A DNA stretch of 64,000 nucleotides from a virus. The stretch lies in IMG/VR virus record IMGVR_UViG_3300045256_000188, positions 19,426-83,425 of that record. One strand, 5' to 3'. This document shows, in pieces, positions 2,790 to 35,085 of this stretch (positions are counted from its first letter, which is position 1; each line of letters begins with the position of its first letter). The notes beneath the pieces are model-generated. The model was not told where the DNA came from. It searched no databases and saw only the letters and a list, made by a program, of their open reading frames with translations. The position numbers and the translations under genes are program-made.

Positions 2790-2833
2790 TGCGACTCTCC
2801 TTGTGAACTACCCTACCCTCTGCTCGCTCTCGC

Positions 2834-3150
2834 TCACAGAGAGGTGGTGGCTTCGGGTTTCACTGAGAACTGCTTCCTTGCGGAAGGCTGACGCTTCTCT
2901 CCACCCGCTAACCCCGTAGTTCCTACGGTTCTTTTTCCTTCCATCAAGATGTTCTTCGCCGCGTTAAAGTCCCTGTCATGCTCCACCCGACATCCCGGAC
3001 ACACCCAAGACCGGTCGGACAAAGTGAGGGGCTCGTTGACGAAACCACCTTTTCGCTCGCTCTCTGGACTTCGACCCCTTCACCTTCCGGGACAACTCCC
3101 GATGCAGGCGCTTCAACCGCCGCTCCAACGTCCTGTACGGCTTGATGGCG
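2834..3150 (-). pseudogene. TnpB (IS200/IS605-type) remnant with internal deletion
   Basis: The C-terminal part reads LSDRSWVCPGC then EHDRDFNAAKNI, the zinc-ribbon and last RuvC segment of TnpB/OrfB transposon nucleases. Upstream, in a different frame (about 3060-3150), is ERRLKRLHRELSRKVKGSK, the conserved mid-protein segment that normally lies over 100 residues earlier. The catalytic middle is therefore missing and the halves are out of frame. The fragment fills the gap between the 1009-residue head protein and the protease. It cannot encode an active nuclease. No TnpA or clear element ends were found. Confidence 0.8.
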
Positions 3151-3161
3151 GGCCAGGAAGG

Positions 3162-11372: not shown

Positions 11373-11455
11373 TACGACTCCCCTAGAGCGATGCGACAGA
11401 GAGTATCTACGGTGAGGTCGCCCTGAGCGTCTATTCGTAAGTTTGAGGGTGTAGA

Positions 11456-12040
11456 ATGCGTCGTCGCGTACTCCCAGGAGCGATCGGGGCCGGACTTCTC
11501 GGCGGTCTGCTGTGGTGGCTCACCGGCAGCCAACCGCCTCCGCCCGCTCCACAACCGCCACCAAACCCGGCTCCCACACCGGCCCCAACCAACACCATCT
11601 CCCAATTACTCGACGCCCACAATCGCTACCGTGCCCAGCACAACGTCCCCGCCTTAGCCCTCAACGCCAAGCTCACCGCTGCCGCCCAGAAGCATGCACG
11701 GTGGATGGCCAACAACCGAAGAATGAGCCACACCGGAGTCGGCGGCTCATCCTTCGCCGACCGCATCAGGGCGGAGGGCTACGACTTCCGGATGGGAGGA
11801 GAGAACATCGCGGCTGGCTATAAGTCCGTCGATGCTGCCATGACCGGCTGGATGAACAGTCCAGGCCACCGGGCCAACATCCTAAACCCAAACTATAAGG
11901 AGGTCGGGCTGGGGGTCGTCAACAACTACTGGTGTACCGTATTCGCTACCCCATTCACCAGCACCAACGCCGTCACCAACTCGATCATCGAACTCCCCGG
12001 TGGCATCCGAGCCGGTGACCTCGACGAATTCGGGCCTTAA
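11456..12040 (+). CDS. CAP/SCP-domain secreted or membrane-anchored protein
   Basis: A 194-residue protein on the strand opposite to the packaging genes. Residues ~8-24 are a hydrophobic segment (signal peptide or anchor) after MRRR; ~26-45 is proline-rich. The rest is a CAP domain: LLDAHNRYRAQH, MSHTG, GENIAAG, MNSPGHRANIL and EVGLGVV are the usual bacterial CAP blocks. CAP domains of bacterial SCP-like proteins are extracellular; activity here is unknown. The gene lies between the portal and terminase starts/ends and overlaps the terminase end by 4 nt (convergent). A role at the cell surface or on the virion is inference; it looks like an acquired gene. Confidence 0.8.
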   Translation: MRRRVLPGAIGAGLLGGLLWWLTGSQPPPPAPQPPPNPAPTPAPTNTISQLLDAHNRYRAQHNVPALALNAKLTAAAQKHARWMANNRRMSHTGVGGSSFADRIRAEGYDFRMGGENIAAGYKSVDAAMTGWMNSPGHRANILNPNYKEVGLGVVNNYWCTVFATPFTSTNAVTNSIIELPGGIRAGDLDEFGP

Positions 12041-15000
12041 TCCTTGTCGTAAAAGAAACGCTTTGGGGTGACCAACGGCTTACCCTGGCTGATTGGGATA
12101 CTACCCAGCGACAAAGTATAAGCATCAAGCTGCCGCTGGGCCGAAGTCTCCGGTAGCTCCGTCGGGGCCAGGGTCATGGGCATCAAAAGCCCAGGCCCGC
12201 CGCGTGCCGCGAACGTCTCCTGCAGATCTACTCGCGACGTATCGGACAGAATCTTCGGCCCCGTCTGGCTCTTGAAATCACCACCATTCGGCCCCATCGG
12301 AACGAGGTTCCCGGCGTCGATAATGTAAGCATCAGCGGCCCCCACCAGGGCCATACCGCATGCCATCACCAAGTCGTCGAAATTACCAGCCCCGTCCTCC
12401 GCCTCAGTCTTCATTGTGTCCTTACCAGACCGGTCACGCTTTCGCACATAGGTCTGGAACTGTTTGAGCAATCGCTTAGAAAAGACCGTGTAGCCGTCTT
12501 CCTCGTTATCACGGATGCAGTCGATGAGGAACTTGTTGAGTGTGGGCTTCGACGCAGTAGTGGTCAAGAAACCGTAGGGAGCCACCTTGAGTGGCCGAGC
12601 CCGCTGCCCAGACCACATCGGACGGGGCTTGTCGTTGATATCCTTCTTACGCCAGATTCGTGGATACATGATGTCGTGACGGAGCATGTCGATGAGAGTG
12701 TCGCCGCCATTGTTCCGCTCGATTACCGCCAGAGCACAGTTATACCACCGCCCAATCCGGTCGATGAACTTCACAAATTCCCGCGGCAGGCAGTGAGCCA
12801 TAAACTCAGCCACTTGTTGGCGGGTGATGACATCGAAGACCTCGATAGCCGAATAGTCACGGCCCTTACCGGTCGCGATGTCCACCCCCATCACGTAGGA
12901 ATGGGCCGGAGTACCAGGGTCGATGATCGTATTGCCCCGCTTCTTCATCGGGGTCGCCAGTACCGGCTTCTCCCAGACCCATAGACCCTCGTTGGGATCC
13001 CTAAACGAGAAGTCCAATTCCTCGGTGCTACCGGTGACAGGGTGCACGTAAACCTGAAGTCCCTCGACCTTGTACTTGGGCTCTTTGAGGGTGGTCTGGA
13101 CGTGGGCCAGAACCTCCTTGGAGAGCACCGTGTTACCGGAGCCGACGAACTGTGCGAGCACTTCTTGTTCGAACTTCCAGGCTTCACCCTGTTCTTGCAG
13201 TGCCCGATATTGGTCTTCCAGCCACGGTGACCACCACTGCCCGTACTTCACGGGATCGAGGCGGATCGGCCCGTGCTTGGGGTGCTGGATGATCTGGCCC
13301 TTGGCCTCCAAGATACCGTCACACGGAGCAATCCGGCGGTTCTCTTTGGACAGAGGATCGACATACTCGATCGCCCAATCCATATCCCACCAGTTGATGA
13401 TACATGGGTTGAACTGGTTGACGCCGGCTTCCGCGTCAGTGACTGTACTCCAGTACCAGTTACCGACGCCATTGGTATTATGCGAGACGAAACCGTTGGA
13501 GATGAACGTATGGTCACCTGGAATCGTGAAGTCATACGTCTCTGCGCTCGAAACATCGACATTCTTAACTTCGTCCCAAAAAATAGACTCATCGGTCAAT
13601 GACTGTAGAGCCTTAAATGACAGATAGGTGTTATGGTCTGGGGCTAGCACATCGACCAGTTTACGGAGTACGGAGCGCTCGGTAAGATCCTTAGCCCGTT
13701 TCTTGAATAACAGATTCGGAGTGTTGATTCCGCGACGCTTCAGCTCGCCGATAGACAGTCCGGACTCCTGCCGCAAACGCGCGAGCCAAAAACGGACATT
13801 AGGGACGAATTCTCTTCTGGAGAGTGTCTTGTTCGAATTGGCCGTCTTCCTATCCAGCCCGAAACCGATGAGATCATAGAATTTATCGATCTCTCCGGAC
13901 GGGACAATCAACTGCCACGACTCCCGACAGTCAGACATGTAGCTGCGTCCGTTGAGGTCGAAAGTCTTCGTGTGTGCCGGATGATATTCTTCGCGAGTGA
14001 TGATCCCAAAATTAAGGAGTATTGCCCGCACTTGTTTGATGAGTTGCCGCGAGGTGGACGTATATCCGACCTCTCCGTTGCGTGAGCGACTGTGACCATC
14101 GCCGTCGTACAACCCACGCAAGAATGCGGCGATGATGCCTTTGGAACACGACCAGAGACGCCGTGGGATTTCTTTATCCGGTGCCGTTCCGGGGACACAC
14201 CCGAGCCATCTGAGGAACCTAACAAAACAACGATTGTAACAACTGATATGCGCAGACCGACTCTCCGGCATCCAGACTAGGCCCCACCGGTTGGATGTCA
14301 GCCAGTCATGGGTCTCGCGATCATCACTGGTAACCGTGACATAATCGTCATTGATGTAGCCTTCAGCGACAATTAGGCCGACCATGGCCGCCAATTCATC
14401 GTCAATCTTGCCGACGTTGAATGACGATGACGCATGCGTGCCCGGACCGTCGCTGAAGTTCAGGTCGTCATCGTCCCCGAACTGCATCATCCCGCGTTTG
14501 ATTGGTATAAAGTCACCGGGCCTAATTTGATCGGCGTAGGTCCAACCCGCCATCTCTCCCTCACGACAGAGCCAGACACGATGCTTGGTGTGGGCTTCTA
14601 GCTCATAGCCCATTTTGGAAGTGATACGACGAGTCTCTTCGGCTCGCCGTTTGTAGAATGCACTAGGTTGTTGTAAACCTCGCCGCCCGAACACAGCCGG
14701 GCCGACATACAGCTTGTATTCATACCCACCCTCTTCACCGACATAGTCGCCGTCAAAATCGCCGATGCGGCACATACCCTTGTTCGTCCACACCAGCGAG
14801 TCGCCGGCCACGCACGTACTGATGACGATGACGTTACCACCGTGCTGCAGGGTGTTGTGACTCACCATCCCGTTAGCGAGATAGGTATTGTTGTGAGGAA
14901 CAGAAATATCAAATGTCTCAGTTTCACCGCTCTTTACAGCAGCGACAGTGTCGAAAAAGAACCCTCGCTGGATATAAGAGGACAAGCGATCCGTTAGACC

Positions 15001-17709
15001 AAATTCGTTAGCCAGCTCACGAACCAAAGCCAATCGTACCACTCCAGACCGGCGGATTCTATGGAGATTCCACTTGCGAGCATCTGGGCATTGACGGAAT
15101 GTCCCACCAGCAATCAATTTCTTGAGAACGGCAGTGGCGAACTCATAGACAAGCACTGGATGATCTATCTCGGCGAATTCGTTGGAGCCGCAAAAAGCGT
15201 CGAGGGCAGCCTGCTTCCTGTCCGTGATAAAACCAATCAAGTCCCGATATTTTAGTTTGCTCGCAGCGTCCCAAATATCGACTCGCCAATATGGCTCACC
15301 GCCATAACGCTGCTCGTTTCGGTCCGGAACTTTAGCCGGCTCGACCAGGCAACGGCGGCTGATGATACCCAGAGCATGTAACGCGATCTGGACTTGTTCA
15401 GCCAGCAACTCCGATGTGGTGGACAACCCAAGCTTCAGGCCGGTTGACGACTGATAACACCAGCCGTCCGAATCAAACAACCCCCGCAAGAACGCACAGA
15501 GAACCTTGGTGTCCGACTTGAGGATCATTTGGGGGATTTGTGCATTCTGCGGCTTACTCTTACTGGCCAGCCCATTACGGACTAGCAGCTCACAAAATTC
15601 AGCCGAGTTCAGACGTAGATTCTCAGTGTCGAACTCCGTCTCAGCATACGCTGTGGTCGTGAGGCCCAAAGGCAGACCGTTGAATTTGGCTATAACAGCG
15701 TCCCTGGTGGCCGCATCTTGGGGGTCGAAAACAATCTTGAAACGCTTGGGCCTGGAGCGACTGAGGCTTCCGTCACCGATATAAAGACCTAAGATCTCGG
15801 CGAGATCCGGAGATAACTCGATGCCATTATCGAGGTATTGACGTTTGCCGACGAACTGACCTGGGAGACTAACAAGGATATCTCCTGGGCTGATATCACC
15901 TAGTTCTCTCCAGACGTAGTTCCCAACTTCATCGATAACCCGTAAACGGTGGTGGTGCGTGCCTTCGATCTGGAATCCAAGCGACGTATCAACGATCGTG
16001 GTGGGTTTACGTCCGGAGACGTAAGCCTTATCACTATACTGATAGCCATTGTCGGTCGCGACACTGATGCTATGATCTTTCCACGGATCTCCACCTCGTG
16101 CCAGGTCGCCTACCTTAACCAACCCCTCTGCCGTCTGGATGAGTGTATTATACCTAGTGCAAGGCCAACCACCAGCCCACATGATATCCATAGACGGGAT
16201 GAACGCCGCTTCGTCAATGATGTTCAGCGAGGAGGCGTTCGACCGGAGGACGTCGGGGTGGCTGGTGAGGCTCTTGATCTTAGAGCCGTTCGGGAAGAAT
16301 AGCTCGTGCTCGTTGTTCTTGACCGGCTTCCACAACTCTTGCATCCAGGGCGGCAGGTGCTCGAATAGGAAGACGATCTGTTCACGCAAGAAGTTCATCG
16401 CGTCATTGTCGGTACGGGACACGATAAGAATCGTCTTGTGTGGATGGAACATCGCAAACCAGAGTGCGAATGCCCCAGCGATCTTCGAGATGCCAGCCTG
16501 ACGGCAATTATGTGCGACGACACCATCAACAATGAAGTTGTATTTGTCAACCTCAAGATCGTAGACCAACGCCTTCCCGGCCGGCTTCACGGACTTGACC
16601 TGCCCCTTGACCCGCTTTCGGAAGAAGCCTTTGGTCGTAGGAGTGTATCGCGGTTCCTTGCCGTATATCCCGATCTGGTCTACGAAGCGGCTGAAGTTGT
16701 CAGTTCCGAAGATCCGCAGTTTGGCCAATGAATTATCAGTGGCCGGATAAAATTTAGCGTCGATCCCGAACCGGCTCAACAGCTGCTTGACTTGATGTAG
16801 CAGCAAGGCCGACTCCGACCTCAGCCCCACCTCATTGCAGTGCTTACCGCTGTACCAACCGCCCCCAGCGAAGATGCGATTCAGAAGCACGGCCAGCGAA
16901 GCATTATTCCAGCTGAAGACACATTCCGGGAGCCGTTTGTTCTCGGCCTTGTGGCCCCACATCCCGATCGATTTGAGCCACTTGCGGGCCGCCGTATCGG
17001 AAGAAAGCACGCGATACAAGTCTTTCTTACTCTTCCCACTTCCGGCTTTGTTGTGCAGTTTGATGCGTAGGCGTTTGGCGAACCTTTTCTGAAAGTGCCG
17101 CTGATATTCAAGCAAGTATTTCCGACAGGTATTGGTGAAATGGAACTGATGGCCGCTACCGGAGCCGCTGTAACAGCCATCGGTCACCAGATAACCAATT
17201 ATGATAGCTTCTGACTCGTCGGCGTCCAGATACCGCTGCGGTTCGTGAACCTCGACCAGGACGTCGTTGGGGGTGAAGTCCTTGGCTTCCATCCAGCGAC
17301 GGCGTGTCAGAAACGAATGATCAGGAGTGCAATCGGAACGGTGGCCAGTCTTGGTCCGCACCGTGACGATGTCCCTCTCACCATTACACCAGGCCGCTGT
17401 GACCTTACCGATCACTACGGCACCGGTGCGTTGGTCGTACGAATAGACCTCATCCCCCTTCTTGACAGCCTCGATCGGCTTGGGGCCGGTAGGCGTCCAG
17501 ACCATCGATCCGGCCGCGAAACACTTGCGGAAAATGTTCAGGCGGTGCTTGCGGAACGACTTAATGGCCTTTAGCTGGTACTTGAACGGGAAGAAGGGAA
17601 TGATACCCGCGGACGGGTGCTTCACCTTCCCCAGGTTACGCAAGAACCACGCCATCGACAATTGGCAACGACGGATCACCTCACGTTGTTGTGCGTTGAC
17701 CACTACCAT
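12037..17709 (-). CDS. Terminase large subunit, gp17-like, with three inteins
   Basis: DNA-packaging motor: N-terminal ATPase and C-terminal RNase H-like nuclease. The 1890-residue precursor minus three inteins is about 669 residues (T4 gp17: 610). Exteins are 1-62, 402-516, 953-965 and 1412-1890. ATPase: CRQAGISK stands in the Walker A position, SLNIIDEAAFIP is Walker B plus the catalytic Glu, and VIVISTTNGVGN (after splicing) is the coupling motif. Nuclease: VMGVDIATGKGRDYSAI, VIERNNGG and a late DGAGNFDDLVMA provide acidic residues. The start codon overlaps the preceding gene's stop (TAATG). The missing canonical GKT in Walker A is as in T4-type variants where this loop is atypical. Confidence 0.92.
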   Translation of the reverse strand: MVVVNAQQREVIRRCQLSMAWFLRNLGKVKHPSAGIIPFFPFKYQLKAIKSFRKHRLNIFRKCFAAGSMVWTPTGPKPIEAVKKGDEVYSYDQRTGAVVIGKVTAAWCNGERDIVTVRTKTGHRSDCTPDHSFLTRRRWMEAKDFTPNDVLVEVHEPQRYLDADESEAIIIGYLVTDGCYSGSGSGHQFHFTNTCRKYLLEYQRHFQKRFAKRLRIKLHNKAGSGKSKKDLYRVLSSDTAARKWLKSIGMWGHKAENKRLPECVFSWNNASLAVLLNRIFAGGGWYSGKHCNEVGLRSESALLLHQVKQLLSRFGIDAKFYPATDNSLAKLRIFGTDNFSRFVDQIGIYGKEPRYTPTTKGFFRKRVKGQVKSVKPAGKALVYDLEVDKYNFIVDGVVAHNCRQAGISKIAGAFALWFAMFHPHKTILIVSRTDNDAMNFLREQIVFLFEHLPPWMQELWKPVKNNEHELFFPNGSKIKSLTSHPDVLRSNASSLNIIDEAAFIPSMDIMWAGGWPCTRYNTLIQTAEGLVKVGDLARGGDPWKDHSISVATDNGYQYSDKAYVSGRKPTTIVDTSLGFQIEGTHHHRLRVIDEVGNYVWRELGDISPGDILVSLPGQFVGKRQYLDNGIELSPDLAEILGLYIGDGSLSRSRPKRFKIVFDPQDAATRDAVIAKFNGLPLGLTTTAYAETEFDTENLRLNSAEFCELLVRNGLASKSKPQNAQIPQMILKSDTKVLCAFLRGLFDSDGWCYQSSTGLKLGLSTTSELLAEQVQIALHALGIISRRCLVEPAKVPDRNEQRYGGEPYWRVDIWDAASKLKYRDLIGFITDRKQAALDAFCGSNEFAEIDHPVLVYEFATAVLKKLIAGGTFRQCPDARKWNLHRIRRSGVVRLALVRELANEFGLTDRLSSYIQRGFFFDTVAAVKSGETETFDISVPHNNTYLANGMVSHNTLQHGGNVIVISTCVAGDSLVWTNKGMCRIGDFDGDYVGEEGGYEYKLYVGPAVFGRRGLQQPSAFYKRRAEETRRITSKMGYELEAHTKHRVWLCREGEMAGWTYADQIRPGDFIPIKRGMMQFGDDDDLNFSDGPGTHASSSFNVGKIDDELAAMVGLIVAEGYINDDYVTVTSDDRETHDWLTSNRWGLVWMPESRSAHISCYNRCFVRFLRWLGCVPGTAPDKEIPRRLWSCSKGIIAAFLRGLYDGDGHSRSRNGEVGYTSTSRQLIKQVRAILLNFGIITREEYHPAHTKTFDLNGRSYMSDCRESWQLIVPSGEIDKFYDLIGFGLDRKTANSNKTLSRREFVPNVRFWLARLRQESGLSIGELKRRGINTPNLLFKKRAKDLTERSVLRKLVDVLAPDHNTYLSFKALQSLTDESIFWDEVKNVDVSSAETYDFTIPGDHTFISNGFVSHNTNGVGNWYWSTVTDAEAGVNQFNPCIINWWDMDWAIEYVDPLSKENRRIAPCDGILEAKGQIIQHPKHGPIRLDPVKYGQWWSPWLEDQYRALQEQGEAWKFEQEVLAQFVGSGNTVLSKEVLAHVQTTLKEPKYKVEGLQVYVHPVTGSTEELDFSFRDPNEGLWVWEKPVLATPMKKRGNTIIDPGTPAHSYVMGVDIATGKGRDYSAIEVFDVITRQQVAEFMAHCLPREFVKFIDRIGRWYNCALAVIERNNGGDTLIDMLRHDIMYPRIWRKKDINDKPRPMWSGQRARPLKVAPYGFLTTTASKPTLNKFLIDCIRDNEEDGYTVFSKRLLKQFQTYVRKRDRSGKDTMKTEAEDGAGNFDDLVMACGMALVGAADAYIIDAGNLVPMGPNGGDFKSQTGPKILSDTSRVDLQETFAARGGPGLLMPMTLAPTELPETSAQRQLDAYTLSLGSIPISQGKPLVTPKRFFYDKD
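13477..14814 (-). mobile_element. Terminase intein 3, LAGLIDADG type (446 aa)
   Basis: Precursor residues 966-1411. Starts CVAGDSLVWTNKG, ends ISNGFVSHN before Thr+1. LAGLIDADG motifs: MVGLIVAEGY and FLRGLYDGDG. It also has a helical insert before block F, ETYDFTIPGDHTF. It interrupts the coupling motif between VIVIST and TNGVGN. Confidence 0.92.
14854..16161 (-). mobile_element. Terminase intein 2, LAGLIDADG type (436 aa)
   Basis: Precursor residues 517-952. Starts CTRYNTLIQTAEG, ends LANGMVSHN before Thr+1. LAGLIDADG motifs: ILGLYIGDGS and FLRGLFDSDG. Block F: TFDISVPHNNTYL. It lies 17 residues after the Walker B DEA and only 13 extein residues from intein 3. Confidence 0.92.
16507..17523 (-). 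mobile_element. Terminase intein 1 (339 aa) in Walker A
   Basis: Precursor residues 63-401. Starts CFAAGSMVWTPTG, ends VDGVVAHN before Cys+1. Two weak LAGLIDADG motifs: IIIGYLVTDG and LLNRIFAGGG; the second lacks its acidic residue, so nuclease activity is doubtful. It splits the nucleotide-binding loop between IFRK and CRQAGISK. Confidence 0.9.
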
Positions 17710-19680: not shown

Positions 19681-20060
19681 TTCAGCGGGAGCGTGCCTGG
19701 GGATTGGACGACGGTGGCCTACTGGCGGTGCTGGCTAACGACCTGCACTTGAAAGTATCCTACGGGGTGTTCCAGTCCAAGCAGTACGTCTTGAGCCGGC
19801 TAAACTTAGCCGGCAAGATACTCTACTGCTCCTGTCGTATCAGCACAGAAGGCACCGACGTGATGTTGACCGGTTCGAACGGTCAGGAAATGGTTGTCAA
19901 CATCGCCGACCCCAACAGCATCGAGAAGTTGGAGAAAGCCATCAAGGACGACAACTTCATGCTGGTTGCCGGTCCTAAGACCGAGCAAAAAATCATCGAG
20001 ATGGAGCGAGATGTGTTCGGCCTAGAAGATTTACTCTTCAAGATGAAGAGTACGATCTAG
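19677..20060 (+). CDS. Unknown protein
   Basis: A 127-residue protein in the same small plus-strand operon as the zinc-finger gene, translationally coupled by ATGA. Sequence has an alternating pattern suggesting a compact alpha/beta fold, with VLANDLHLKVSYGVF and a C-terminal helix. No family recognised. It ends convergently with the sigma-factor gene, overlapping it by 4 nt. Confidence 0.55.
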   Translation: MIQRERAWGLDDGGLLAVLANDLHLKVSYGVFQSKQYVLSRLNLAGKILYCSCRISTEGTDVMLTGSNGQEMVVNIADPNSIEKLEKAIKDDNFMLVAGPKTEQKIIEMERDVFGLEDLLFKMKSTI

Positions 20061-21049
20061 GACTCGTCCTCGTTGTCGTCCGCGCTACGTCGCCATCCGG
20101 CCCGCTGCCCATCAGCACCACGGTTCAGATTCGAGTCAGTCAGTTCCATACTCCGCAATTTCGTCAACTGGATGAAGTTGGTGACCGTAGCCCGGGATAG
20201 CCCGGTGCGGTCTACCAGCTTACCAATGATCCCATCGTGCGGCCGGTCGTCGTTCTCGGCAATCCAGGCGATTGCTTCGATGATCTGCAGGTGATCGTTG
20301 TGGTACTTCCACAATTCGCGGGCTTCGTTGAGGAACCTCTCCATCACCCCCGACACCGGCCGGCTCTTGGTCCCAAGGTGGTTAACGTAAGAGCCGGAGT
20401 TCTTGCGGTCCCGGCCCTCTTTCTTGATATAGGCCAAGATTACCGTTCGGGCGATCTGGCTCCACATGTTGAAGACTTTGGATATGCCGCGGAACAGTAC
20501 CGTCTCAGAACCACCATATCTGCCCTGCTTGGGCTCGACGCCCGGTGATGCATTCAGGAGGGCTTGGCAATGTGGGCAGCGACGGCCGCGGTGGAGACTG
20601 ATAACCTCCTCAATCGTCTTGATACCATACTCCTTGTCGCCCGGTTGGTAGAGCAGGGAGTCGGAGGGGCGTTCTGGGTTGAAGCAAACCCGACAGTGTG
20701 GGCGTGCTCGATACTTGTAGAGGGTCCGCTCGATTTGAACCCAGGCAGTCTGGAGAAGGTCACCGAAAGCGGACTCTTCTTGGCCTGGGTAGATGGTGTG
20801 GAGGCCCTGCTTGCGGATTATTTGGCGGATGAGTTCGGTGGCGTGACTCATGATCTGGTCACGCAGAACTACCTTCGTGCAACCCGTCCAAATGTATAGC
20901 GTTAGCTGCCATTCGACTTCTTCATTAATGAAATACAATTTACGTTGCGGCGTCACCACCGGTGGCGGGCACGGGGGGACTTGGCTGCTTGGAGGCTGGG
21001 ACAAGCAGCTTTCGTCGGATTTTGAATCTACTTTTAACGAGTTCTGCAC
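20057..21049 (-). CDS. Late-transcription sigma factor, gp55-like
   Basis: Resembles T4 gp55 and related phage late sigma factors that direct host RNA polymerase to late promoters. After a proline-rich 35-residue start, it has RKLYFINEEVEW, then LRDQIMSHATELIRQIIR, then GDLLQTAWVQIERTLYKY, which corresponds to sigma region 2. A four-Cys insertion (CRVC ... CPHC, residues ~119-160) suggests a zinc site. A C-terminal segment, IIGKLVDRTGLSRATVTNFI, is a helix-turn-helix that could act as region 4. The longest frame overlaps the helicase end by 110 nt; a GTG at 20959 gives a protein starting just before RKLYF and is plausible. I could not locate a convincing TATAAATA late promoter by eye. Confidence 0.75.
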   Translation of the reverse strand: MQNSLKVDSKSDESCLSQPPSSQVPPCPPPVVTPQRKLYFINEEVEWQLTLYIWTGCTKVVLRDQIMSHATELIRQIIRKQGLHTIYPGQEESAFGDLLQTAWVQIERTLYKYRARPHCRVCFNPERPSDSLLYQPGDKEYGIKTIEEVISLHRGRRCPHCQALLNASPGVEPKQGRYGGSETVLFRGISKVFNMWSQIARTVILAYIKKEGRDRKNSGSYVNHLGTKSRPVSGVMERFLNEARELWKYHNDHLQIIEAIAWIAENDDRPHDGIIGKLVDRTGLSRATVTNFIQLTKLRSMELTDSNLNRGADGQRAGWRRSADDNEDES

Positions 21050-24000
21050 CGTCCACGCTCCCGCCAGGAAATACGACCTTGGTAGGGTAGCCGGCTTGGA
21101 CTATCACCTTGAGCCGGGCCTTCGAGTGATCGTATAGGTACCGGTTGCAGCGGAAGAAGAAGTCGTAAATCTTGCTTTCGCCGCGACGGTTCCGCCGAAG
21201 GGCACGGCCGATCTTTTGAATGAACTCCGATTGGAGCTTACCCCCCGACGCGATTATCAGGTTCTCGCAACCTCCCTGCAGGTCAAGACCCCGGTTAATA
21301 ATCTTCCCGCCGATAAGTACATCCAGTTCCCGCCGTTCGAACGCACGCAATGCCTCATCACGTTTACGCTGCGGCGTCTTCCCGAAGATGAACTTCACCC
21401 TGAGTCCGGTCAGATTCACAGCCTCTTCCAACTTGAAACCCAACGCCTCCCGGTCCACCAGCACTAGTGTCCCATCCATCGGGTCCCGTTTACACCGCTT
21501 GCACAACTTCGCCACGATCGTGTGGAAGCGGACACTCTCAGTAATGTGCTCGTTGTAGGCGATGTCGTAAGCCGACGCCTCGTTGATATCCCCATCCAGC
21601 CCGCAGGCCAACATGTGGTATTCGCAAGGAATGATCCGGCCCAGCTTCGTCAGGTTCTCCCGCGTCTCCTGGAAAATCACACTGCCCAAGTGCTCCTGCA
21701 CCACCATCGCCTCGACCGGCTTGGCCGGATCGAACGGAGTACCAGAGTTGTGAACCAGCACACCATCAGCATAGAAGTTTGAGGCCGGATTGACGTCCAG
21801 AACGTCATACATTCTGACCTCTTTGCCGGTATCGACGACTTCAATCACCGACGTTTTAGCTTTTCGACAGAGATAAACGGGAACACCTTTCCATGAGGAC
21901 AAGCTGTGATCGTCAAAAGAGAACGGGATAAAAGCCGCATTGGGTATCACTACGTCATCACCGTTCGATGCGACGACTGTCCTGCAGTATACCAGTGCCC
22001 GGTGGACCGCCCAACCTATCAGATCCGGACTTTTGGTAGGCATCTGTGTCCGCAGTGCATCCAGAAATTGCCACACATCGTTGAGAGAAGAAGACGGGCT
22101 ATGGAGGCCACAAAAGAAAAGATGTTGCGAGATCACGGCGTGGAAAACTGGTTTTCCGTCGCAGAGCACCAGAAAACCGCGAAGTCCACTAGGCAACGGC
22201 TGTACGGCAGTGAGTCGTTCAACAATCAAAAACGGCGTAGGGAGACCTGCCTCGGCAGATACGGCGTTGACCACCCGATGAAACTGAAGGGCATGGTCCA
22301 GAGAGTCCAAAACACTATGATGGAGCGTTACGGCTGTCCCATCATCTTCCAAGCACCCGATAAGATCCAACGACGATTGAAGATATTCAAGCAGCGTTTC
22401 GGCGGCAACCCCGTCAACGACCCTTCCGTTCGACAGAAAATTAGCCGCACTCTCGCTGAAGGATACAGCAGTGGCAGACTCAAATTCCCGACCAAATTCA
22501 AGACCGGATACTACCTCGACCGGCATGGGCGGTTGTTGTATTACGCCTCGTCTTATGAACTCCTGTTTCTCCAGTTCCTCGACGGGCACGGCATTGCGTT
22601 CACCACGCAAGAACCCAGAATCGGCTATGAATTCGAGGGGAGACGCCAATACGTGATCGATTTCTGTACCGACGAGTGCTTGATCGAGGTAGGACCGCGT
22701 AAACTCAAGGCCCGGCCACGCAATGTGGCCAAGATCCACGCCGGGGTCGCTTTTGCCCAGAAAGTCGGTAAGCGATATAAGCTTCTCGACGAGACGATCA
22801 TCTTGAGTCTGGATAATTTGACCTGGGCTGATATCTTGAACTCTGATGTAGCGTCCCAGATCGTCAGCGATAAGGTGATCACCTGACGCCCCTAGCCGCG
22901 TACCGTCGCTGAATAAGACCTCCCATAACCTCTTAAAGCCGCTGTCAACAACTGTCCCGACCCCAAAAACATCCCTACCATTCGATCGGCACAGGACGTC
23001 AACCACCTGACCGTCGCCGAACGAACTCAACTTTCTACATCCATCTTTAGTGACCACAGACACATCGCCTGGCAAGCAGAACCCATACCGCCGCCGGCCT
23101 CTGAAATAGAAGCGGAACAGGTTCTTCCACGGATCGGACACAGCCTTGTCGCAATTATGAACTAACAAGCCGTTCGCTTCAAAACAAGCTGGACCGGGGA
23201 CAGTCAAATCAATCAAGCGTGCGGGATCAGCCAACTCGACGGTTTTAACTATTTCAACCGCATAATCACAGAGACTGGTGTCCACTCGTTTAGAAGCAAG
23301 GCGATTTTGCAAATTCCGCACATAACCACGCCATAGATCATCACCTCGCTGGCGACGATCCCACGCCGTCTTGCTGTCTATGCCAGCGAACGCCGCCACT
23401 TTGGCGTCACTAACACCGAATAAATTTTTGGCAGCAGCATAATTGGCCGGTACCACCGCGATCAAATTGTCAATTGATTTTTGCCATTTAACCAACCTTA
23501 TAAGACTAATTTTGTTACGATTGCCAGGAGACACACCGGTAGTGTTGGTCCCTAGGATTCTAGCCAGTTTGACTGGGGGCAGACCAGCTTCCCGCCAGTG
23601 AGCCAACCATGGTTGCGGATCAATTCGTCGTTCACTGTCCACAACCGAAGAGAGCACGGGTTTGCTCTGTTTTCGGCTGAAACCAAAACCAACCAGTCGA
23701 TGCCACTTCCTAAAATTTTCGCCAGATACGGCAACCCGCCACAGTTTAGCGTGTTGTGCACGATCACGCTTATTACTAATGAACACACTAGAGCCAATTC
23801 CTAAATAAGCCATGAGTTTCTGAGCGAAATTCATCAATGCCCAATCGATTGAGTCACAAGTCACGGAGCTTGGATAAGACGACCCTTTTGCATCAAATAA
23901 TCCACGCAATAAGCTAGCCGCAGCGTCGGTGCTGGGAACCACAAATCGTGGATCGATCGACCCCATCTTACGTCCGGGTTTGAACCCAAGCTGTTTCAAC

Positions 24001-25289
24001 CATGCTGTTAAGGCTGACGACTTGATTATAAACACAAAATCGCCACGGCGATTGAAACCAGATTTAAATGACCCAGACCAGGCGACAGCCATCGCCACAC
24101 CAACAGCATGCCAGTCGTCAACATCTTTCCGAACTGCGAAGCGTACTCGCTCATTATCCAAAAAATGGCCATCTCCGATAAACAGACCGAGGTGGTACCA
24201 AGAGTCTATGATTGTGGTGGTAGCAATCTCCGGGCGAGGGGCCAACAGCAAGTCGCCGGGGACGAGATCGCAAGCATGACGATAGTCGCATCGGCCATTA
24301 ACTAAAACAGCACATGGATGGTTGTGCGAAGTCCGCAAAATTATACCAGTCGTGGTTGTAACGTTGACAGTAGCTTCTACCTTTTCGGACCACCCACTAA
24401 TTCGATAATACTTATCATTGACGCGAGCCATTACAACTTGACCAGTCTGCAAACGTTCTACCACCACTGCGGCTCGTTCGAGACCTCCGTCGGTGACTAT
24501 TACAGTGTCTTCGTGAACGCACTCGTCCACAATAATCATTTCGGCCTTGCGGACGTACTCGATCAGCACCTTAGCATTCTTGCGACGGGTCTTGAACGCC
24601 TTGAACTTCTTATCCCACTGTTCCATCCGTTTCTGGAACGAGATATCGCCTTCCCCCATCTTCTGGGTAGGGACCTCCGGTGGCTTGGTAGGCAATGTAA
24701 GTGACTGGATAGAACCGATGACCACCATCTGGCCATTGGGCCGCTTCCCAGCGTAGAACATGCCGACTTCTTCGGCCACATCCCGCAGTTCCAGCCGCTC
24801 CTTGAGTTGCTTTACTACAATCACTTGGTCAGCGAGGATGATCGTCGGGCAAGGAATAGCCTTGCAAGTGCCGGCGATGAGTTCGCCCTTACCGCCGCCG
24901 GTTGGTATGTCGATAATACCGCACTCGACCCTGACGGTCTTTCGGATGCAGTCGATCTGGTACTGCTCCAGCTTGATGCCGGGCAGGAAATTCTCGTCGA
25001 TGGTATCAGGATCGACTGTTTGGTAATTCCAAGCTGGGCGAAGATCGCGAACTGAGAGGGGTAGGTTGTGCTTGTTGCAAACACCACGGAGCATCGACAG
25101 GAATGGGCGGGCCATTCGCCGCCGGCCGCGATTGTACTTGCGGAACACCCCATCCCAATTCGCCATCTGGGTTGGGTCAACATAACGGCCCGGTCGACTA
25201 ACACTGAACTCTTCCCAAAGGATGTTCTCCTCGGCGTCCGTGATGTTGTCGAAGTAAATCCACTGGTTGTCGTTGAGTATGGCGATCAC
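20940..25289 (-). CDS. UvsW-like superfamily 2 helicase with two inteins
   Basis: ATP-dependent DNA helicase of the T4 UvsW type (recombination, fork repair, R-loop removal). The 1449-residue precursor minus inteins (456 and 444) gives about 549 residues (UvsW: 503). Exteins are 1-256, 713-737 and 1182-1449. Motif I: DIPTGGGKGELIAG (~128-141). Motif II: EMIIVDE joined after splicing to CDKA, a DEAD-box variant DECD. Motif III region: YGF joined to SGTPFD. Motifs V and VI: NRGLDLQG and QKIGRALRR. The start is GTG with AGAGG eight bases upstream. The C-terminal ~40 residues are disordered. Confidence 0.9.
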   Translation of the reverse strand: MIAILNDNQWIYFDNITDAEENILWEEFSVSRPGRYVDPTQMANWDGVFRKYNRGRRRMARPFLSMLRGVCNKHNLPLSVRDLRPAWNYQTVDPDTIDENFLPGIKLEQYQIDCIRKTVRVECGIIDIPTGGGKGELIAGTCKAIPCPTIILADQVIVVKQLKERLELRDVAEEVGMFYAGKRPNGQMVVIGSIQSLTLPTKPPEVPTQKMGEGDISFQKRMEQWDKKFKAFKTRRKNAKVLIEYVRKAEMIIVDECVHEDTVIVTDGGLERAAVVVERLQTGQVVMARVNDKYYRISGWSEKVEATVNVTTTTGIILRTSHNHPCAVLVNGRCDYRHACDLVPGDLLLAPRPEIATTTIIDSWYHLGLFIGDGHFLDNERVRFAVRKDVDDWHAVGVAMAVAWSGSFKSGFNRRGDFVFIIKSSALTAWLKQLGFKPGRKMGSIDPRFVVPSTDAAASLLRGLFDAKGSSYPSSVTCDSIDWALMNFAQKLMAYLGIGSSVFISNKRDRAQHAKLWRVAVSGENFRKWHRLVGFGFSRKQSKPVLSSVVDSERRIDPQPWLAHWREAGLPPVKLARILGTNTTGVSPGNRNKISLIRLVKWQKSIDNLIAVVPANYAAAKNLFGVSDAKVAAFAGIDSKTAWDRRQRGDDLWRGYVRNLQNRLASKRVDTSLCDYAVEIVKTVELADPARLIDLTVPGPACFEANGLLVHNCDKAVSDPWKNLFRFYFRGRRRYGFCLPGDVSVVTKDGCRKLSSFGDGQVVDVLCRSNGRDVFGVGTVVDSGFKRLWEVLFSDGTRLGASGDHLIADDLGRYIRVQDISPGQIIQTQDDRLVEKLISLTDFLGKSDPGVDLGHIAWPGLEFTRSYLDQALVGTEIDHVLASPLEFIADSGFLRGERNAVPVEELEKQEFIRRGVIQQPPMPVEVVSGLEFGREFESATAVSFSESAANFLSNGRVVDGVAAETLLEYLQSSLDLIGCLEDDGTAVTLHHSVLDSLDHALQFHRVVNAVSAEAGLPTPFLIVERLTAVQPLPSGLRGFLVLCDGKPVFHAVISQHLFFCGLHSPSSSLNDVWQFLDALRTQMPTKSPDLIGWAVHRALVYCRTVVASNGDDVVIPNAAFIPFSFDDHSLSSWKGVPVYLCRKAKTSVIEVVDTGKEVRMYDVLDVNPASNFYADGVLVHNSGTPFDPAKPVEAMVVQEHLGSVIFQETRENLTKLGRIIPCEYHMLACGLDGDINEASAYDIAYNEHITESVRFHTIVAKLCKRCKRDPMDGTLVLVDREALGFKLEEAVNLTGLRVKFIFGKTPQRKRDEALRAFERRELDVLIGGKIINRGLDLQGGCENLIIASGGKLQSEFIQKIGRALRRNRRGESKIYDFFFRCNRYLYDHSKARLKVIVQAGYPTKVVFPGGSVDGAELVKSRFKIRRKLLVPASKQPSPPVPATGGDAAT
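21894..21908 (+). promoter_or_regulatory. Ribosome binding site and GTG start of the antisense endonuclease
   Basis: The sequence tgaggacaagctgtg combines an in-frame TGA, a GAGGA Shine-Dalgarno core and a GTG start at six-base spacing. It decides the start of the antisense gene and argues that it is translated. Confidence 0.75.
21906..22886 (+). CDS. Homing endonuclease (Vsr/PD-(D/E)XK-like) encoded antisense inside an intein
   Basis: A 326-residue ORF opposite to the helicase. GTG start with GAGGA six bases upstream and an in-frame TGA at 21894-21896, so this is the first possible start. Residues 22-51 form a four-Cys zinc ribbon (CDDC ... CPQC). Residues ~75-150 carry repeated YG-type modules (HGVENWFS, LYGSESFN, RYGVDHPM, RYGCPIIF) typical of DNA-binding regions in phage homing endonucleases. 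Residues ~215-265 match a very-short-patch-repair/PD-(D/E)XK nuclease core: SYELLFLQFL, YVIDF and LIEVGP give Glu218, Asp252 and Glu261. All Leu and Ser codons avoid TTA, CTA and TCA, as needed to keep the antisense intein frame open. Family assignment by eye. Confidence 0.85.
   Translation: MIVKRERDKSRIGYHYVITVRCDDCPAVYQCPVDRPTYQIRTFGRHLCPQCIQKLPHIVERRRRAMEATKEKMLRDHGVENWFSVAEHQKTAKSTRQRLYGSESFNNQKRRRETCLGRYGVDHPMKLKGMVQRVQNTMMERYGCPIIFQAPDKIQRRLKIFKQRFGGNPVNDPSVRQKISRTLAEGYSSGRLKFPTKFKTGYYLDRHGRLLYYASSYELLFLQFLDGHGIAFTTQEPRIGYEFEGRRQYVIDFCTDECLIEVGPRKLKARPRNVAKIHAGVAFAQKVGKRYKLLDETIILSLDNLTWADILNSDVASQIVSDKVIT
23154..24521 (-). mobile_element. Helicase intein 1, LAGLIDADG type (456 aa)
   Basis: Precursor residues 257-712. 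Starts CVHEDTVIVTDGG, ends ANGLLVHN before Cys+1. LAGLIDADG motifs HLGLFIGDG and LLRGLFDAKG (second motif with Lys after Ala). A long helical segment precedes block F. Insertion splits the DEAD-type box between Asp-Glu and Cys-Asp. Confidence 0.92.
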
Positions 25290-25510: not shown

Positions 25511-28500
25511 CTACGTGGGCATGGCGCACTTGTCGTTGTCGCAGAACTGCGAACCCACCGCCTCGTACAGATACTCCGAGTAATCGGCGTTACCGAGCTT
25601 GGAGTTGTACTCCTCAACTTCCGCGGCCTCACACGGAATGTATGGGGCCTGGGCGTAGCCATGGTCTACGTGCGGCAGGAAACTGATGCCCTTGAGTTGG
25701 TCCTCAAAAGCTTCCAGCACGCGGGCAATGTCCGCGGCCTCGTGCGGCTTAAACTTCACGGTACACGACACTTGGTTATCGGCCCAATACCGCTGGTAAT
25801 CCACGGCGTTCTGCATCTGTTCCCAGATGCTAACTTCGCCGACTGGCCGGACGCCCGATTCGCCCTTGACGCCGAAGTAGACCACCACGGTCCGGTCCGG
25901 GTCAGACAGCACCGGCTCGACCTTGAAACCCGCCTCGCGGAGGATCTTGACCAGGACCGAGTCCTTGGCGACCCGCACCAACCGCCAGTAGGTGCCGGCT
26001 TCGGGATGGTGGATGCCGGGGGAGACGCCCACGACCAGACTGACGGTGTTATGGCTTTTCACCGCCCCCGCATAGTACCAGTGACTATTATCGACCTCGA
26101 CATCATATGTGCGTTGCCGTTCGCCTTGGGTTACAGCCACCACTTTGCCAAATAATCTGTTCTTCTTGCCAACTTGGTGTGTCCATGGTAAATCGGCAAC
26201 GGCGTCTTCCACACACTTATTGCAGTGTTTAGCGAACAACGCGAAGCGGTCGTCCACGGTGTGTTTCATCCCAGACAAGGACCACATTCTTCGCACGCCT
26301 TGATGATTGCGTCCCTTAGCGTTAAGCGACCTACTGAAAACAAGACCAACGGCCAACGCCACATCCTGAACGTGCCGAGCAAATAAATCCCCAGACATTG
26401 AAATGATTGGATACTGATCAGACGCCCGCCGACCAATGCAGCCATCGGAATCACACAGCCCAGCCAGGAAGGCCAAGATGTCTTCGTAGCTTGAACTGCG
26501 TATGCATTTCGGGATCAAATCAGCATTGCTCTTGATTTTCAGACAGTCGTTAATCAAGAGCCAGTGCCACAGCAACTTGGAACCAACTTCGAGAACGAAA
26601 GCATCACGACCTTGGGAAGCCCGTGTGATTTTCGTCTCGACTCCGAATTGCTCCAGAATAACCCTTTGGGCTTTGTGTAAATTAGACAGATTTTGATCGG
26701 TGTACCGCATCCTGAATTTCAGGAACGATTGTGAACCGTCGCCCCACATGTATCCGAGCAACCACGCTAGATCCGGGTTCATGTGCGTTGGTTGCTCAAT
26801 GGCTGCGACCGGACCACGCATCGACACGTGCCTAGATGATAGTTTGCAGAGGGCAGCATGGTTGCGACACGAATAAATACCAGGAGTCAGTTGCACGATG
26901 TCGCCAGGCAACAGTTCGTCGGCACGTTTCCAGTCGTTGACCTGGCTTAATTTCCGCTTCTTACCTCGGTCGTATCGTGACACTACGAACCATTGATGGT
27001 TTGGAGTCGACTCAAGCATGAAATTGTAGTTGAGTTTGACCTTCACGACATCAGATAAGCCGTTGTCATAGGTCTTGGTGATGCGATCACCGATTGCCGT
27101 GGCAACTCCAGCCATCATCGACCGACTAGAATCGATTCCATCTCCCTGAACAGCGATCACTTCTTTGGTCATATCACACCACCGTTCCCCATCCTGATGG
27201 CCAGACATCTCGAACAGCTCTTCGAGGGTCAGCAGACCGGCGGATGTTGTCGTCAGTGCATGCCAGGGCCGACAGCCGCTAGGCTTGACCGACGTGACCT
27301 TGATCGACTTCGGAACGCACATCCATTCCGAGTAGATCTGGTCCCAACGGCGGATCTCATTGTAGCCGGCATCGCAGAAGTCCTTGAGGACCGTGCGACG
27401 ACCAAACTTGGCGAACGCTTCCACGATCCCCGACTGGCTCAGGCCGATCCGCCGGTTGCGGAGGGTGACCTGATTCGTCCGGCGATTGTGGGTTGGCAGC
27501 AGGGTGACGGTCTTGGCGTACAGGTAGGCGAACTTGAGGGTCCGCATGTAGTCGTTGGCATCATCGTGGTTCGATGGGAACGTCTCCACGAGATTACATT
27601 GGTAAGTGATGACGTTCCCGAATACACCCATGTGGTTGTCCGGCTCATCAAAGCAATAAGTAGTATGCAGACCAGGAAGTTTCTCGACGGCAACCACATA
27701 CTGCTTTTGGGCGACATCGATTCCGCGATTCGAGTATCGTGGATTCGGCTTAATCCGGCTACCGATCTTAGTTGCTCGCTTCACCCTGGTTGGGATTTCT
27801 CCGCACTCGAAGCTCGGAATCTGAATGTACCAGAGGTCGTTCTGTCGCACCCCCTTGTTCGTCACTTGCCCAGCCGGGTGATAAAAATTGACGGAGGCGT
27901 GGTTGATCCCAGCCCTGCGTAGGAGTAGTTGGGCATCACGAATCTTGGCTTCCAAACCGTAGATCCGATAGCTGTGAGTATTAGCCTGCTTACACACGCA
28001 ACCGTCCGACTCGATCCAACCGGCGATGAACTCCAAGATGCTCTCACGATCGAAAGCCATCACCCACGCCGGTAAGCCGGCGTTCTTGTCGCGAAGTTCT
28101 CTGAGCTGATCGGAAGTCATACAGTCTCGAAGATTGATGCGATTATACGGGTCGCCGTAACCATCCTTATTCTGTGGTTTGTACCAACGACCTCCCATGT
28201 CCAGCGTCTTGAGTTTGGCCTTTTGGCCACAGGCGACGGCCATGGGGCGGGTATAGCGTGGCCGATTCACGAGATCACCATCGCCAGTAGCATAGCCCAT
28301 TTCAAAAGCGTTAGAGACTTTGTTACCAGCGACCCGGCCCAGAGAGAAACCCAGCACGCGGTCTCCAGGCTGTAATTGTAGGGTTCCAACACGTCGATAG
28401 ACCCGTTTTCCAACAGGCCGCACCGACCATCCGTGATTGCCGGTAGCATCCAGATAAGAACCGTCGGAGAAGTGAACTCGATATAGTTCGCGGTCGCTCC

Positions 28501-31500
28501 CAGTGACGCGGGGCGTGACTTTCGACCAACTATCGCCGTTCCAGACTTCGACAATCTTACCAACCACGGCGTCGATCCGGCGGATGCCATCCCGGAGCTG
28601 TAATTTAGTGTCACCACTGACACACAGCTCGTACGACTCCAGGGACTGCTCCATGCATTGACCAATTATTATCCCATTGACAACAACTTTATTATGCCCC
28701 GGTTCGGTAAGACAGAAAGTCTCCTCCTCACCGACACGCTCAACAGACATGACCATCGCAAACAGTTTCGGTAAAGAGTTGCGGCTACCATGGTGGTCGG
28801 CCAACCAAGATGTAGCCTTTTCGGTTTTCGAAGCCTGTATAAAACCGATCTGATTCATGAACAGCTGAACGTTAGTACGACCGGAGATTATTAGTTCGTG
28901 GCCACCATTTCCATCGTTCATAAGTCTGGTGGTAACCGCTTGTCTTCGCAGGACGCTAGAATTGATCCCAAACTGCCTAAGCAACAGTTGACATTCATTC
29001 AAGAATGACTTCGATTTCTGGCCGGCCCTGATAGAGATTGATAGTTTGTAGTTGCTAATCTGTACACCACCGTCCGCACTAAAGAAGCCCCTAAGGAAAG
29101 CTGCCACTGTTTCGCGAGTGCCACCCCAAATAGATGTAGGGACCCTGTGCTTGTCGCCTGGAACAACACCGTCACTATTAAGCAATCGACCCAGGACATT
29201 GGACCTGATCGATTTCTGCCGATGGCTGAAATGCTCCTGACGGCGTTCACTGCCATCGAAATCGGGAGACTGATCACTGGATTGATTGTGCCGATGATAG
29301 ACATCCAATAGATTACGGCGCAACACCGGTAAGACCTCTTCGATATCGTCCTGATGACAGGCCACAAACGCCGTCACCTGACCATCACGCTGTTGTGACA
29401 GTGAGCCATCTCCGATCACCCAGCCAGCCAATTCAGCATAGTGCGGATCGCTGAATTGCCCGAATGCTGGCACGAAATGAAGTGGCAAACGGTGACCCGG
29501 AACCAATTCACATAGCCGTACCCTGTGCTCAACCATATCATCATCCAAGACTACGAAGACATGATCAGCGGTGGCGTCGATATACTGACCATTACTAAGC
29601 ATCACGCGGAATATTTCAGCACGTTCGCTAGTTCGATAAACATTGGTAGCAGTAACCACACCAGCATGGTTTACTACTCTGAGTGTGCCATGCTTGTCAA
29701 CGGATGGTTGACCGCTATACTCCTGAAACCCACCACTTACCCACAGTTCGCGCATCGTGCGATATCCGTTCTCGGTCAACAACCTCATGGCTCCCGCAAA
29801 ACAAGGGTTCGCCCCCATCACGCGGCCATCCACACCGGGCTTGAGGCCGTCCACCATCCGCCCGTAGTCGCGGACGTTGTTGAGCCAGATGATACCCGGC
29901 TCGCCGTTGACGCCGATCTGCTGACCGACAGGACGGTAATCCATGCCGAGCTTGGCGAAGATCGAGTTGTTGGATGCCCAGCGGTGGTGGTTAAGGGCGT
30001 TCCAGGTCTGGATTGCCGGCAGCAACCGCTCATCCGGGATGTCCTTACCGGCGAAGTCGTCCTTGGTGGCCGAGTTCCGCTTGGCGGCGTAAATCTTGCC
30101 CGTAACTTCGAACCACGCATCCATGTCCTGCGGCAGCAGGGTCTTGGTCGGGTTCTTCATCGAGCAGTACGCTTCGTCGTCGGCGTCACCGAAGGCGATT
30201 TCGGCGGTGTTATGCACCAAACGCCCCTCCGCCACGAACTCGCTGCGGTCCGGCACGGACAGATCGTAGGTCTCGACGGTCACTCCCTCGTCCACGACTG
30301 AGGTCACCGCCACCGGAATCAGACCCTTTGTCTTCAGGCCCAGCGTAGTAGCACTTGAATAGGTCATCTGTTCCTGTTGCGGCGTCCAGGTTCGGCCGTA
30401 GTCAGCATACATCACACTCTTGCTGACCATCTCCGTCGGGTAGCCGAAATCGTGGCCGCTGGCCCGTCCCATCTCGCGAAGCTGCTTGACCGCATGGGGC
30501 TGGACATGCTGGCGGAAACCGGCGATGGCATACTCGCCCAGCAACGAGATCTCCCATTTGGCCTGGCCAGCAGCGTCGGCCTTCTTACGGAGCCGCAATT
30601 TGGTCGGGATACCAAGGCTTGAGTATACGGCCTGCACCTGCCGTAGGAAGTCACGATATACGCTAGTCACCAGGGTGGTTGGACGGTTCTTGGTGGAACC
30701 GTCGCTGTCCAGCAGCCCGGCGAGGTAGGCAGATCTGATCTCCGGGATCCCCATGCGGATACAGGCCGGTACGTCAAGGGGCTTACGGGCCTGCTTAACG
30801 TGAGTGTACAAATAGTGGGCCAGTCGCTTGGAAATGACACGGATCTTGCGACAATTATCTTGGCTGCGTTGCTCGCCGGGGGCGTCGAAACCGAAGGCCG
30901 CAAATCCGGCGTTCACTTTGGCGGTGATACCATCATGGTATTCGTCTCGATTTACGGGGATCGTCACCGAGGCTCCATGGTACTTGCGGCCCTTGTGGGC
31001 ACGCCCAGGATACACGTAGCCGCCGCCATGTACGGCCCCCAGGAACCACGCCACGTCCGTGGTCAGACCGGGGACGATCAGGGTTGACCCGCGGCCGGAT
31101 AGGTCACTGTAGCCGGGCAGGACGGTATCGGTACCGGGGATGACGGCATCCACGAACACCATTCGGTCACCGGCCCGGAGTTCGTGGGCACGCTTCCACT
31201 CGTATTGGTCCAGGCCGCTCATCACGGCGATCCGGTGCCTGTCGGTGCAGCGGAACGGCCCCATCAGACTGTTGATGGTCACCACCCGCTGAACCCCCTG
31301 GGCCACGTTTTCGGCGACCGGGTAATAGCCGTCGGCGGTGAGGACTAAATCACCGACCTGTACCTGTTCGATCGGGACCAACCCGCGTTTGAGGTGAACC
31401 AGGGTGCCCTTGGGCAAGCACCGACGGACATTCCCAGCAACCACGCAACGACCAATGTAGTTCATCAAGTCGGTGATGTCCACCGAATCGAGGGTCTGGC

Positions 31501-34432: not shown

Positions 34433-35085
34433 GGTTCTCTCCAGTCTTGCTCGAAGATGTCGCGGGCTTGGTTGAGGTTTCCCTGATCCTTCAGGAATTC
34501 CTGCCACAGGATGTACAATTCGGTCTGCCTGGGTAACAATCCCCGTTCGTCTGGGTAGTCGCGGTTGAGTCGAGCCAGAACTTTGGAGCAGGACCGCGAC
34601 AGTGCGAGATAGAGCGGTGTGATACGGGACGCCTGGAACCACATAGTCAGGTTACAAAACCCGTCAGGGTCTGCCCGACTTGATAGCACTTCCACGGCGT
34701 TGCCATCGCCAATTTTCTTGCTGAGCCAGGACTTGATGTGCCGGAGGGAATCGGTCGTTCGCGTGTTGTTGTTGGACTCTTCTTGCAGTTCCTCGTAGCA
34801 CAGATCCAGCATGTTGTGCTGGTGCAGTACTGCGAGTCCCTTGTTCAGCAGTCCCTTCTCTTTCGCGAGCCGCACGGCGATGTCGATGAACTTCTTCGCC
34901 GCTTCATCCGGTAGTTCCCACTCCTCAAACTTTTTAGCGATGGCCGTCGCATACCGCCACTGGTAAGTCTTGGACGGGTCCGTACCGGCCGGGAGGCTCA
35001 GCCTACGGCCTTGCCGTAGATAGGCTTCTGAGCACCAGGACCAGACGTCGAGCACCCGGTTGTCGTCCACTTGCGACCTCTTCAT
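34414..35085 (-). CDS. Unknown helical protein upstream of the reductase
   Basis: A protein of 223 residues, start at MKRSQVDDNRVLD. The frame is open 60 codons further upstream but that part overlaps the neighbouring plus-strand gene and looks non-coding. It is mostly alpha-helical with repeated helix pairs of ~35 residues (for example DEAAKKFIDIAVRLAKEKG, LNRDYPDERGLLPRQ), reminiscent of tetratricopeptide-like scaffolds, but no consensus repeat is clear. It ends inside the reductase start (19-nt overlap), so the two are co-transcribed. Function unknown. Confidence 0.65.
   Translation of the reverse strand: MKRSQVDDNRVLDVWSWCSEAYLRQGRRLSLPAGTDPSKTYQWRYATAIAKKFEEWELPDEAAKKFIDIAVRLAKEKGLLNKGLAVLHQHNMLDLCYEELQEESNNNTRTTDSLRHIKSWLSKKIGDGNAVEVLSSRADPDGFCNLTMWFQASRITPLYLALSRSCSKVLARLNRDYPDERGLLPRQTELYILWQEFLKDQGNLNQARDIFEQDWREPCLLSS

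Follow-up and report, generated by a model that had tools for sequence, protein, structure and literature searches.

Within a 64,000-nucleotide stretch of viral DNA (IMG/VR record IMGVR_UViG_3300045256_000188, positions 19,426 to 83,425; the window), the second of two inteins in a superfamily 2 helicase gene carries, on its opposite strand, a gene for a putative homing endonuclease. The intein (intein 2; 21747..23078, minus strand, 444 residues) has its splicing residues in place, and an open reading frame (ORF) of 326 codons (21906..22886, plus strand) runs antisense through its interior, matches homing endonuclease families, and bears the marks of selection in its own sense. Very probably, this is a mobile intein that keeps its homing endonuclease as a separate gene on the other strand; that the nuclease is expressed and cleaves, and that the intein splices, we infer from sequence.

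The predicted antisense nuclease gene

The plus-strand gene starts with GTG, ends with TGA, and encodes a protein with zinc-ribbon-like CxxC and CPxC motifs, YG repeats, and a C-terminal PD-(D/E)xK-like core. An in-frame upstream TGA and a Shine-Dalgarno-like GAGGA lie together in a TGAGGA region (21893..21899, plus strand), with GAGGA 6 nucleotides 5' of the start. The ORF is in exact codon register with intein 2 (offset 0 mod 3), opposite intein residues 65-391. A preliminary description of this DNA had named the upstream TGA, the ribosome binding site, the start codon, the register, the four cysteines and three acidic core residues, and all are present in the window allele.

Two further alleles were located by profile scans of viral contigs, allowing three pairwise comparisons. 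A helicase profile recovered many intein-free relatives and one carrier, contig L075 (intein at 7038-8348, plus strand), and a nuclease profile recovered L075 again along with contig L079 (4580-5908, minus strand). In all three alleles the intein sits at the identical helicase residue with an antisense ORF in register, and a nuclease gene of 322-327 codons ends 192 nucleotides into the intein, read in intein sense. GAGGA is kept in L075, a weaker GAGC is found in L079, and both have ATG where the window allele has GTG. The CxxC (22/25) and CPxC (48/51) cysteines, E218, D252 and E261 are invariant across the three homologs.

Family membership bears out the earlier proposal of a nuclease gene antisense within an intein. 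The plus ORF matches DUF7487 at an E-value of 1.9e-20 (74.2 bits, against a curated cut-off of 27 bits), and the L075 and L079 homologs do so at 4.1e-16 and 4.2e-19 (60 and 69.8 bits, same cut-off). Among PHROG families, it matches a homing endonuclease (4.1e-7) and, over its C-terminal part, an endonuclease (5.8e-5), and families of these two kinds (PHROG 3339, 12131 and 15427) are matched by all three homologs. E218, D252 and E261 align with the SSWE, PDF and VEIKG motifs of a free-standing relative, a YG-repeat gene on contig L080.

The length of the ORF was considered as evidence for the gene and dropped. Elsewhere in the window, other genes have in-register antisense-open runs of 459, 412 and 336 codons, and because longer runs of this kind exist, the length of the plus ORF by itself proves nothing. 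Such runs lend some color to the idea that the plus ORF arose antisense by chance and that the linker is an unrecognized or decayed in-frame endonuclease domain. Three findings stand against this idea, to which we give next to no credence: the plus ORF has significant family matches, and ten further long antisense ORFs in the window, tested as possible nucleases, have no PHROG or family match; no in-frame nuclease domain is found in intein 2; and selection is frame-specific in 3/3 comparisons, as described below, which refutes it. By family homology and selection pattern together, the predicted gene exceeds chance. As a control for chance antisense ORF length in the window, a 530-residue ORF (2949-4541, plus strand) lies opposite a low-complexity gene (3162-6191, minus strand); both lack family matches, and the plus-strand ORF looks spurious.

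Selection on the two strands

The preliminary description had set conservation of the linker as the test of the antisense gene, and the outcome favors the gene. Across the three pairs, nuclease-sense identity is 201/322, 195/326 and 194/322 (60-62%), and the ratio of nonsynonymous to synonymous differences (pN/pS) is 0.31, 0.34 and 0.32 in the nuclease sense, similar to that of the helicase extein (0.33-0.42). For the same codons read in the intein sense, pN/pS is 0.81, 0.94 and 1.11. Differences at nuclease codon position 1 versus position 3 number 104/175, 114/191 and 97/183 (p = 3e-5, 1e-5 and 3e-7), with the excess at position 3 in every pair. Beyond the ORF, the flanks revert to the intein frame. 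In both the N-terminal splicing segment (22887..23078, minus strand, 64 codons) and the C-terminal segment with blocks F and G (21747..21905, minus strand, 53 codons), most substitutions fall at intein codon position 3, with values at positions 1/2/3 of 0.55/0.42/0.73 and 0.39/0.38/0.66, respectively, and the antisense frame there contains 1-9 stops, in every allele. Judged by these substitution patterns, the plus-strand protein is under purifying selection and the minus-sense linker is near neutral.

Intein-sense conservation alone does not account for the nuclease identity: a codon-redraw null gives 79-89 nuclease-sense identities expected from it, against 194-201 observed. Several points weigh on the other side. 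The null draws its codons independently, so that the identity expected from shared ancestry is understated. The AlphaFold models are too poor for use, with a predicted local distance difference test score (pLDDT) of 41 for the nuclease, too low for a fold search, and of 36 for intein 2. Sequence searches of the PDB returned chance matches only. The third core motif is conserved as E-x-G-P-R-K (EVGPRK), and because the lysine of the classic ExK is displaced, catalysis by the plus-strand protein is presumptive. Finally, no sigma-70-like promoter was found on the plus strand near the nuclease gene. A T4-type late promoter, TATAAATA, is likewise absent from the 64-kb window. The genes around the helicase in L075 and L079 lie on the helicase strand, and the nuclease message therefore probably has a promoter of its own.

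The core had earlier been called Vsr-like, a label that we do not adopt. Judged against Vsr and I-Bth0305I, it finds no Vsr match and no match in the PDB; the weak matches of the nuclease homologs are to TnsA-like (0.0079 in L079) and phage endonuclease I families; and a Vsr annotation occurs on just one relative, from Klebsiella phage Muenster, whose C-terminus differs. From these comparisons, a nuclease core of generic PD-(D/E)xK type appears likelier than a Vsr-like one.

The helicase frame and its inteins

The helicase ORF (20940..25289, minus strand) comprises 1449 residues, of which the extein alone accounts for 549. It matches ResIII (1.7e-6), Helicase_C (4.3e-10) and Intein_splicing (4.3e-9) in Pfam and a DNA helicase in PHROG (1.1e-36), and the whole extein can be aligned with intein-free relatives. 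Intein 1 (23154..24521, minus strand, 456 residues, site VDE^CDK), which serves as comparator, is of the in-frame LAGLIDADG type (LAGLIDADG_3, 2.9e-6) and has a homolog in L075. Intein 2 lies in helicase motif III (RRYGF^SGTPF) and has Cys1, an S-G-D-H block B, a VHN end and Ser+1, which fits the residue pattern of a class 1 intein (Cys or Ser at position 1, T/S-x-x-H in block B, a C-terminal H-N, and Cys, Ser or Thr at +1); the L075 and L079 inteins have C1, S-x-D-H, VHN and S+1. By Pfam, no endonuclease domain is present in its own frame, and the earlier account of normal splicing ends without an in-frame nuclease stands. Matches to the Intein_splicing profile stay below the curated cut-off for intein 2 by itself (E 0.0036) and for the helicase of L079 (4.5e-4). 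The 3' end of the helicase gene shares about 110 nucleotides (20940-21049) with the start of the minus-strand gene that follows (20057-21049), whose L079 homolog (1603-3930) is itself intein-bearing.

The nuclease genes also bear on whether the helicase can be read through. As the preliminary description had noted for the window gene, TTA, CTA and TCA codons are missing from it, and they are missing from the other two nuclease genes as well. Under the codon usage of the respective helicase, such an absence has a probability of 3e-3, 1.3e-5 and 1.1e-5, values that are not fully independent. Avoidance of these codons in the nuclease genes implies that the helicase frame is also maintained open. 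We weighed the case of a real nuclease within a dead intein, in which the helicase would be broken or misfolded and the through-frame open by chance. A long linker that lacks minus-sense conservation would fit such decay, but the host genes of L075 and L079 use the three codons commonly, all three alleles retain the splicing residues (Cys1, Asp-His of block B, VHN and Ser+1), and the exteins are under purifying selection, all of which makes a dead intein very unlikely.

A second arrangement that leaves the nuclease real is a fractured gene with a split intein, its halves made as separate proteins around a free-standing nuclease gene. Fractured genes in which split-intein halves flank a free-standing nuclease gene were reportedly described in 2009, and the present locus shares with them a separately expressed nuclease gene (expression here being predicted) between intein halves. 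It differs in that the host gene is unsplit: the minus frame runs unbroken from 25289 to 20940 for 1449 codons, it is likewise continuous from the helicase N- to C-terminus in the other two viruses, intein and linker are read in a single frame, and the nuclease genes avoid codons that would terminate it. The continuous frame refutes the split-intein explanation, barring internal initiation, and we regard it as extremely improbable.

A contiguous intein with an antisense gene, the reading we prefer, includes a likely dual-coding stretch at 22812..22886 (both strands), where the nuclease C-terminus (..LDNLTWADILNSDVASQIVSDKVIT*) lies opposite block B and the strands that follow it (SGDHLIADDLGRYIRVQDISPGQII). 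Here the nuclease 3' end, LDNLTWADILNSDVAS..., is opposite block B reading SGDHLIADDLGRYIRVQDISPGQ. Mean identity over the stretch is 0.53 in the nuclease sense and 0.45 in the intein sense, and D67, H68, G86 and Q87 of the intein sense are invariant in the three alleles. About 25 nuclease codons are thus probably dual-coding, in a sample below the size for a formal test. The linker had been described as meaningless in the minus sense. For most of its length, near neutrality agrees with that description, but the last 25 or so nuclease codons overlap block B, and the linker is for this reason not wholly meaningless.

Distribution and mobility

Empty alleles, whose search the preliminary description had proposed, are the rule among relatives. 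Their helicases read straight across the site as uninterrupted RRYGFSGTPF, and the insertion is accordingly precise and in frame. In a helicase tree of 48 distinct sequences, the three carriers fall on three well-supported separate branches among 45 sequences without the intein, a placement that requires three changes on the tree. Between the window and L079, the nuclease (60% identity) is more alike than the helicase (49%). This sporadic distribution would be expected of a homing element, though scattered carriers may also have arisen through repeated loss of an old intein.

All three inteins found at this site carry the antisense gene, and the remaining 45 helicases lack both. This co-occurrence bears on whether the nuclease is instead a nested parasite, a gene that invaded a mini-intein, targets nuclease-free inteins, and moves itself without the intein. 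Related nucleases are free-standing phage genes, and this one therefore probably moved into an intein at some stage. Against nested parasitism, no nuclease-free intein was found at the site, and a gene inside an intein would bring that intein along upon cutting an empty helicase; we consider this explanation unlikely. Searches for further relatives gave little: no free-standing close relative in the viral contigs scanned, none from pattern scans of 84,980 prokaryote genomes, and no match in a DNA-level search of phage records. A broad nuclease alignment offered no stretch conserved enough for use as a scan pattern.

Proposed mechanism and relation to known systems

In the mechanism we propose, helicase mRNA would be translated across intein 2, yielding a linker of about 300 residues, largely a by-product of the gene on the opposite strand. 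The Hint segments on either side would then fold together and excise the intein. A separate plus-strand transcript would give rise to the 326-residue PD-(D/E)xK-type YG-repeat endonuclease, which would cleave intein-free helicase genes at the DNA of motif III (GF^SGTPF), and repair off the carrier allele would copy intein and nuclease gene jointly. With moderate confidence, we suggest that this represents a previously undescribed class of mobile intein that codes on both strands in register: one strand for the host protein and its splicing element, the opposite one for an independently expressed nuclease. A brief overlap would be dual-coding, and nuclease timing and dose would be uncoupled from the helicase. 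The antisense transcript may additionally damp helicase mRNA.

Intein endonucleases are known as domains of the intein, produced whenever the host protein is. Canonical mobile inteins with in-frame LAGLIDADG or HNH nucleases, such as intein 1, resemble intein 2 in having Hint blocks at both ends, in their insertion at a conserved active site of a nucleic-acid enzyme, and in their sporadic distribution. In those elements the nuclease belongs to the intein's own polypeptide, whereas here it would be a separate opposite-strand protein of a PD-(D/E)xK/YG-repeat family. Literature searches, with sparse coverage of subscription papers and bioRxiv, turned up no earlier case of a contiguous intein that has a nuclease gene antisense within it.

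Other systems share parts of this arrangement. Nuclear group I introns carry antisense homing endonuclease genes, such as I-DsqI, in an account that does not mention inteins (PMC9548176). There, too, the nuclease gene lies opposite a host gene and splicing element (PMC9548176), but intron RNA sets no reading frame, whereas here 326 opposite codons stay translatable and splicing would occur at the protein level. In a phage methylase, an out-of-frame HNH gene of ShiLan type is accompanied by no splicing domain (PMC11855218). It too is a phage nuclease gene that sits out of frame in the gene of a host protein and leaves that gene's frame open; the present gene differs in being on the opposite strand, in codon register, and within an intein with intact splicing residues. 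The phage homing endonucleases F-LimIII and F-LimVIII, which are free-standing, and DUF7487 relatives share the YG-repeat region and nuclease C-terminus (about 21-32% identity over aligned parts), but they stand alone between phage genes rather than within an intein.

Splicing and nuclease functions would here be uncoupled, on opposite strands, and yet they are found together in three diverged viruses. The locus suggests that a Hint domain can tolerate a linker of about 300 residues that is not selected as protein, and it is an example from nature of coding that is fully antisense and in register, with a selection signature that can be measured. How an intein gains a new nuclease without fusion becomes testable, and we suggest that inteins with odd long linkers are worth re-reading on the other strand.

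Other inteins in the window

The virus is very intein-rich (6612-17709 and 25511-34642, minus strand). Its portal gene has HNH and LAGLIDADG inteins, its terminase-like gene has three LAGLIDADG inteins, and its ribonucleotide reductase ORF (25511-34642, minus strand, 3043 residues) has several inteins. Two related inteins of the reductase lie back to back (31877-33955, minus strand; 343 and 350 residues, 173/339 identical) with zero extein residues between them (ALNN^CLEF...LTGN^CLPA...HSRN^CGFV), and consequently Cys1 of the second would act as the +1 residue of the first. The L075 reductase is uninterrupted at the tandem-intein site (SAALNNCAFVST).
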